DNA of 37,865 nucleotides, taken from NCBI GenBank assembly GCA_026707185.1, contig JAPOXI010000104.1, positions 1 through 37,865 on the forward strand, written 5' to 3'. Numbering within the stretch: position 1 is the stretch's first letter; each line of letters begins with the position of its first letter. This document shows, piece by piece, positions 7,976 through 8,712 of the stretch. Source of the DNA: Chloroflexota bacterium. GTDB lineage: Bacteria; Chloroflexota; UBA11872. The notes under the pieces were generated by a model. That model saw only the letters and a program-made list of their open reading frames with translations, searched no databases and was not told the origin of the DNA. The translations under genes were made by a program, and so were the position numbers.

Positions 7976-8212
7976 ATGGACGAGTTGGTTGAGTTCATCG
8001 CCCGCAACCTGGTGACGGAGCCAGACGCGGTGCGCGTGAACCGGGTTCAGCGCCACCATCTCAGCATTTACAAGCTGTACGTCCATCCGTCGGATATGGG
8101 CAGGGTGATTGGACGGCAGGGGCGCGTGGCGAGGGCCGTCCGGGCCGTGATGCACGCCGCGCCGATCGGCGGCGACCGGCGGCTGGCGCTCGACATTCAG
8201 GAAAGCCACTGA
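7976..8212 (+). CDS. khpA: KH-domain RNA-binding protein KhpA
   Basis: A 78-residue single KH-domain protein (former YlqC). The KH signature G-R-V-I-G-R-Q-G-R (GxxG loop plus flanks) lies near residues 42-50. In many Gram-positive and Chloroflexota genomes khpA follows rpsP; its partner KhpB usually lies elsewhere. It binds small RNAs and affects cell division and cell-wall growth in Firmicutes. The gene starts nine bases after rpsP and its stop codon overlaps the proposed CTG start of rimM. Confidence 0.95.
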   Translation: MDELVEFIARNLVTEPDAVRVNRVQRHHLSIYKLYVHPSDMGRVIGRQGRVARAVRAVMHAAPIGGDRRLALDIQESH

Positions 8213-8712
8213 CGGACGCGCCCACGGAGATAGTCCTCGCCACCGTGCTGGGGGCGTTCGGTGTGCGCGGCGAGGTTCGGATTCGGCTGGAAACCGATGT
8301 GCTCGGCAACCTTGCGGCGGGCCGTCGCGTCTACGTTGGCGCGAGCCGCGACGCGGTTGAGATCGAGGCGTTCCACTCCGGTGTCAAACCACGCCTCATG
8401 CTTTCCGGTGTGCGCACGCGCGACGAGGCGCGTGATCTGCGGGGGGCCGAAATCTCGGTGCCGCTGGCCGAAGCGGTGCCCCTGCCGGATGGCGCCTACT
8501 ACGGCGCGGAGCTCATTGGGGTGCGTGTGGTGGGGCTCAGCGGCGAACCGATTGGAACGCTTCGCGAGGTGATGTCGACGGGCAGCAATGACGTGTACGT
8601 GGTGCGCGGTCCGGACGGGGAAGTGCTGGTACCGGCGATCCCGGACGTGGTGCAGGGCTTCGATCCCGAGCGGCGGGAACTCACGATCGAGCTGATCGAG
8701 GGGCTGCGCTGA
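8209..8712 (+). CDS. rimM: Ribosome maturation factor RimM (CTG start proposed)
   Basis: RimM helps the 30S head mature, binding S19. The reading has the usual N-terminal strand and loop E-I-V-L-A-T-V-L-G-A-F-G-V-R-G-E-V-R-I and the C-terminal PRC-barrel part (D-G-A-Y-Y-G-A-E-L-I-G, then V-L-V-P-A-I-P-D-V-V). The first standard start, GTG 8245, would remove the first conserved strand. Upstream to the khpA stop the only start-like codon is CTG 8209-8211. It overlaps the khpA TGA as CTGA, has AGGA six bases upstream (8199-8202), and yields M-T-D-A-P-T-E-I-V, a normal RimM beginning. I therefore propose a CTG start, giving 167 residues, the usual family length. The 3' end shares one base with the trmD ATG. 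Confidence 0.92.
   Translation: MTDAPTEIVLATVLGAFGVRGEVRIRLETDVLGNLAAGRRVYVGASRDAVEIEAFHSGVKPRLMLSGVRTRDEARDLRGAEISVPLAEAVPLPDGAYYGAELIGVRVVGLSGEPIGTLREVMSTGSNDVYVVRGPDGEVLVPAIPDVVQGFDPERRELTIELIEGLR

Follow-up and report, generated by a model that had tools for sequence, protein, structure and literature searches.

The rimM gene of a Chloroflexota bacterium (assembly GCA_026707185.1, contig JAPOXI010000104.1; the whole stretch of 37,865 nucleotides that was analysed is called the window) is very probably translated from a CTG codon at position 8209, which overlaps the stop codon of the upstream khpA gene as CTGA. This start had been proposed in an initial annotation made from the window alone, and comparison with related genomes supports it, CTG being the only candidate that would serve at one and the same place in all 15 RimM-bearing relatives that share the junction. 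With less assurance, we consider it probable that translation of rimM is coupled to that of khpA through the overlap.

The khpA–rimM junction

The genes lie in the order rpsP, khpA, rimM and trmD (Table 1), and the trmD ATG shares one base with the rimM stop codon (TGATG). The last codons of khpA in the window are CAC TGA, and the CTG and TGA together give a −4 nt stop/start overlap (CTGA, 8209–8212) that is of the NTGA type and is conserved. The placement of the CTG on the khpA stop codon, with AGGA six bases before it, was confirmed in the sequence, as was the claim that GTG 8245 is the first standard in-frame start. CTG had also been called the only plausible start between that GTG and the khpA stop. 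From CTG 8209 the rimM frame extends back through khpA for 72 codons to an in-frame stop, and no NTG or ATH codon occurs over that length in the window.

Table 1. Features of the rpsP–trmD cluster in the window.
Feature	Position	Strand	Basis
rpsP (ribosomal protein S16), first gene of the cluster	7691..7966	+	ORF; Pfam PF00886
khpA (KH-domain RNA-binding protein), stop TGA 8210-8212	7976..8212	+	ORF; Pfam PF13083
AGGA, Shine-Dalgarno-like, six bases 5' of CTG	8199..8202	+	sequence
CTG, putative rimM start codon	8209..8211	+	conserved CTGA, 13/13 same-genus and 2/2 g4 genomes
rimM from CTG, 167 aa and stop	8209..8712	+	TIGR02273; PF01782, PF24986, PF05239
GTG, codon 13, first standard start, rejected as start	8245..8247	+	GTG in 11/14 genus sequences only; cuts predicted strand 7-17
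trmD, tRNA (guanine-1) methyltransferase	8712..9467	+	ORF; Pfam PF01746

Two further observations concern other parts of the window. Two small adjoining ORFs on the minus strand (6946–7305 and 7320–7505) look by eye like a possible MazF/PemK-type toxin and its antitoxin, and the listed TTG start of the first of these is doubtful. On the plus strand, an ORF at 11161–12834 looks by eye like a possible diverged GroEL-type chaperonin, and the GTG listed as its start may lie upstream of the real one.

The RimM protein and its N-terminus

When read from CTG, the gene product matches the RimM family profile TIGR02273 with 105.8 bits (cut-off 66.2) and the N-terminal domain PF01782 with 44.6 (cut-off 23.5), and PF01782, PF24986 and PF05239 together account for the RimM N-terminal barrel and the PRC barrel. 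The full match to TIGR02273 and PF01782 and the S16-RimM-TrmD neighbourhood are those of the RimM family in general, and only the start codon differs here. The family profile barely separates the candidate starts, however, since the form beginning at GTG 13 still scores 101.4 bits.

The structure predicted from 11 sequences has a mean pLDDT of 86.7, but only 71 for residues 1–10, and places the first strand of RimM at residues 7–17. The initial annotation had stated that a start at GTG 8245 removes the first conserved strand; in the predicted structure this strand is indeed affected, but it would be cut through rather than wholly lost. Alignments to solved RimM structures begin at profile position 6 for 2f1l and 7 for 2qgg, though not before 11 for 3h9n; the first two thus extend RimM homology upstream of GTG 13.

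Conservation of the CTGA overlap

The kinship of the window was judged from G001, its nearest genome. A RimM search matched 52 of 61 genomes, including all 13 of the same genus, with RimM identities of 52–91%. Nine of the genus genomes bear Chloroflexota or Chloroflexi assembly names and one of these nine is a single chromosome; several presumably come from sponges, going by their assembly names. CTGA is found at the homologous place in 13/13 of the same-genus genomes and also in both genomes of genus g4, of the same order. Among 24 genomes sampled from the order, Pfam detects RimM in 16 (all 13 from the genus, both from g4 and one from g5), and 15 of these have the CTGA junction. The sole exception, G022 of g5, reads CTAG instead; an in-frame ATG precedes this by nine codons and a GTG follows it eight codons later. 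Judged on these alignments, the conservation of CTGA across the genus and g4 is more than chance.

ATG or GTG at the codon corresponding to CTG 8209 had been expected in relatives as support for the proposed start. None was found, and every relative that shares the junction has CTG itself. The identical codon in all 13 genus genomes rules out a read error for ATG or GTG and marks the non-standard start as a lineage trait.

The junction takes other forms outside these genera. In five relatives of the class (L143, L018, L149, L022 and L151) the khpA–rimM junction reads CTGATG or TTGATG, with an ATG right after the codon equivalent to CTG, and the RimM N-terminus before the core is 44–94 codons longer. 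In the six genomes of genus g2 (L128–L133) and in G020 (L138), trmD directly follows khpA, and neither the Pfam profile nor RimM alignment nor a protein search detected a RimM in these seven genomes. It seems that rimM has been lost in g2 and G020, unless it has diverged past recognition.

Competing start codons

The leading alternative to CTG is a start at GTG 8245 (codon 13), which would give a RimM of 155 amino acids with the preceding codons untranslated in the rimM frame. This codon comes first among the standard starts of rimM in the window, the truncated protein remains above the TIGR02273 and PF01782 cut-offs, and gene callers chose it in 37 of the 56 nearest database clusters. Against this, codon 13 is GTG in only 11 of the 14 genus sequences; L008, L012 and L013 have GTT there, and both g4 genomes have GTC. 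No standard start is met before codon 23 in L008 or before codon 31 in the one-contig genome L012, and both these codons lie past the conserved GVRGE segment. GTG 8245 has no well-spaced Shine-Dalgarno sequence, the nearest GGAG in the window being 15 bases upstream of it, and a start there cuts predicted strand 7–17, while solved RimM structures align further upstream. We regard initiation at GTG 8245 as very improbable.

The comparison with database annotation covered the nearest 56 (P0002–P0057) of 90 protein clusters, in which starts are placed at codon 13 (37 clusters), codon 12 (1), codon 31 (13), codon 4 (3) and codon 8 (1), the remaining cluster being a 94-aa fragment; none of the 56 starts before codon 4. 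The 13 clusters called from codon 31 lack PF01782, the RimM N-terminal domain, in their precomputed domains, and some of them keep GTG 13 in the DNA (P0040, for example, matches L005). As GTG 13 can be present and yet skipped, the choices of gene callers say little about which codons exist.

The single NCBI cluster called from codon 8 (P0005, 160 aa; ATT in L002) points to a start at a non-standard isoleucine codon (ATA, ATC or ATT), and AUU starts are known, for example in infC. Codon 8 is CTA in L013, however, and elsewhere ATA, ATC or ATT as expected for a conserved isoleucine, and in the window GGAG abuts the codon without a spacer, so that this start is still harder to accept than GTG 8245. 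A KhpA-RimM fusion made by a −1 frameshift near the khpA stop would suit the absence of stop codons from the rimM frame over at least 26 codons back into khpA in 16/16 sequences, but it is the least credible of the alternatives, as none of the 16 has a strict X XXY YYZ slippery heptamer and the last khpA codon would re-pair at 0 or 1 of 3 bases after the slip.

Once GTG 13 is rejected, the window and 12 of the 13 genus genomes have no standard start that fits both the protein and the relatives, and for L008 and L012 this holds even without rejecting GTG 13. It does not hold for L013, which has a GTG at codon 4 and no Shine-Dalgarno motif beside CTG, or for both genomes of g4, where a GTG stands in frame nine codons upstream of CTG. 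With a standard start close by, the CTG start appears less certain in these three genomes. Even so, the aligned genes show that no standard codon could be the common start of the relatives' rimM.

Translation signals

AGGAG lies five bases before CTG in 12 of the 13 genus relatives; in the two g4 genomes the motif is GGAGG, four bases ahead of CTG. The Shine-Dalgarno stretch doubles as khpA coding sequence and persists for the most part in genus g2, which has no rimM, so that it supports the CTG start without proving it. The 3' end of the 16S rRNA carries the anti-Shine-Dalgarno sequence CCTCC in three of the four genomes searched (G001 gave no exact match), and an unusual anti-Shine-Dalgarno sequence is thus unsupported in those three.

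Selection on codons 2–8 was assessed in the window and 11 close genus sequences. The pN/pS ratio is 0.51 in the RimM frame and 0.98 in the next frame; the third frame has zero synonymous changes. Few sites are available for this test in a segment as short as codons 2–8. Further into rimM the ratio is 0.17 for codons 9–60 and 0.26 for codons 61–160, indicating purifying selection in the genus. A consensus fold of the junction RNA from 13 sequences gave no evidence of a conserved structure (1 of 27 pairs changed on both sides; covariation term −0.15).

An altered initiator tRNA was also considered and is unsupported in the genomes that gave a close match. An E. coli initiator query gave near full-length matches of 92–93% in eight of the 13 genus genomes and in G014, G021 and G022, and in all 11 ARAGORN reads the anticodon CAT and the GGG/CCC anticodon stem of an ordinary initiator. 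Matches were partial in G010 and G012, only 72–73% in G001 and G004, and absent in G024. The best match in G009 (L230, 81%) is a tRNA-Met (CAT) with a T-A pair where initiators have the GGG/CCC stem, and may be another tRNA or contamination.

Chance level and independent cases

In one relative (G003), C precedes TGA in 55% of 108 sampled TGA-ending ORFs, and the g2 genomes, which are without rimM, also have C before the khpA TGA. Given that frequency, retention of the C is by itself weak evidence, and the weight of CTGA as evidence rests on the absence of any other start shared by the relatives.

As a rough control, a crude filter for overlaps alone, antisense noise included, was applied to 400 kb of G003 and to the window. 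It passed 12 ATGA, 11 GTGA, 2 TTGA and 11 CTGA overlaps, the last including the rimM of G003. Five other CTGA overlaps were translated: two are antisense frames by eye, one has an ATG 41 codons downstream that opens a plausible enzyme, and two have an ATG 4 codons upstream and 3 codons downstream, respectively. By their listed positions, the remaining five comprise two antisense to the rimM locus and three with a standard start at codon 2. No further CTGA junction needing CTG was found in the 400 kb of G003 and the window, and CTGA starts as a genome-wide habit are unsupported by this control, although the filter misses true cases, as the window's own rimM failed it.

Several searches together gave 109 distinct RimM loci, 29 of them with an in-frame NTGA junction to khpA, which is CTGA in 23. 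No standard start lies between CTGA and residue 8 in 15 of these 23: 12 loci from the genus, both g4 loci and L105. Four loci first flagged as having no standard start within 40 codons were set aside: L067, L077 and L081 (G039, G033 and G040) have a GTG or ATG further upstream, at the khpA stop, and L072 sits at a contig end. The search of the phylum matched 355 of 400 genomes and served only as a source of loci.

L105 (5959–6465 of a Dehalococcoidia chromosome, G401) is a rimM whose junction is CTGA and whose first standard start comes no earlier than codon 48. A search among the genomes around G401 matched 47 of 59; 29 relatives were compared and 17 further matches left out. None of the 29 has CTGA without a standard start before the core, and L203 has its first standard start right at the first strand residue. 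By this comparison L105 looks like an independent, isolated case of a CTGA rimM.

Discussion

With initiation at CTG as the preferred reading, a ribosome finishing khpA would stop at UGA, be kept nearby by contact between AGGAG and the anti-Shine-Dalgarno sequence, and shift back by one base, setting the initiator tRNA on the overlapping CUG. RimM would then begin M-T-D-A-P-T-E-I-V, and since CUG is a weak initiator its output would be low and tied to translation of khpA. Neighbouring genes are spaced as NTGA more often than in any other way, and translation of such pairs is reported to be often coupled (PMC12548453). The khpA–rimM pair shares with the coupled NTGA (−4 nt) pairs reported there and in PMC6728339 the stop/start geometry, the tight operon and a Shine-Dalgarno sequence inside the upstream gene; it differs from them in starting with CTG, and coupling here is something that we infer.

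Three readings bear on the persistence of CTG. The one we give the most weight, though a little short of an even chance, is that CTG is an unselected leftover, used by default where RimM is less needed. This differs from the others in why CTG persists and not in the start site, and its probability does not exclude that of the CTG start. C is the commonest base before TGA, and the absence of rimM between khpA and trmD, and of any RimM by profile, from all six g2 genomes and G020 fits a reduced need for RimM. In addition, 5 of the 16 class relatives outside the order have an ATG directly after the position equivalent to CTG (TGATG), and loss of such an ATG could leave CTG behind. The purifying selection on RimM in the genus argues the other way. 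So do 7 of the 16 sequences (khpA ending in CGC, GTC or GGC), in which one synonymous change would create a standard start that is seen in none of them.

A more tentative proposal is that CTG has been selected for a low dosage of RimM, the weak coupled start being a cheap means of limiting the supply of an assembly factor that shares its mRNA with S16. Translation of E. coli rimM is reported to be limited by mRNA structure (PMC5318159, citing Wikstrom 1992). Initiation may likewise be restrained at the level of translation here, with a weak codon serving in place of the structure. The third reading, which we think unlikely, is that CTG is actively maintained as a coupling-only start that locks the dosage of RimM to that of KhpA. 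A ribosome just off khpA and already on the mRNA would largely escape the CUG penalty in the −4 overlap, while CTGA would work as a start only after translation of khpA and be nearly silent to free ribosomes.

CTG starts are already documented in bacteria. By profiling they account for 0.7% of Caulobacter CDSs (PMC4117421), and rimM resembles those genes in that CTG alone can serve to start its coding frame. The rimM codon differs in being conserved over many species at a core gene, and the evidence for it is comparative. In Caulobacter dnaA a CUG site was toeprinted but is reported as unused in vivo, which is a caution (PMC8443254). CUG is reported to make up ∼0.024% of bacterial start codons and to give 0.86% of the output of AUG (PMC11497404), and reconstructed start-codon changes include only 2 of 61,358 ancestral AUG starts that became CUG (PMC5622118). 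One further report concerns eukaryotic cells and was set aside (PMC4648390). The titles and abstract openings surveyed, all from an open-access library, mention neither a CTG start for rimM nor a CTGA khpA–rimM junction.

Since CUG is rare and weak, its retention in a ribosome-assembly gene throughout a genus and beyond is uncommon, and it is this conservation across many species at a core gene, rather than a CTG start as such, that is unusual here. For the databases it would mean a systematic annotation error, in which gene-finding software tends to set the rimM start of these uncultured bacteria too far downstream. For the biology of translation, the conserved CUG of rimM raises the question of whether reinitiating ribosomes tolerate codons that are rejected by fresh initiation.
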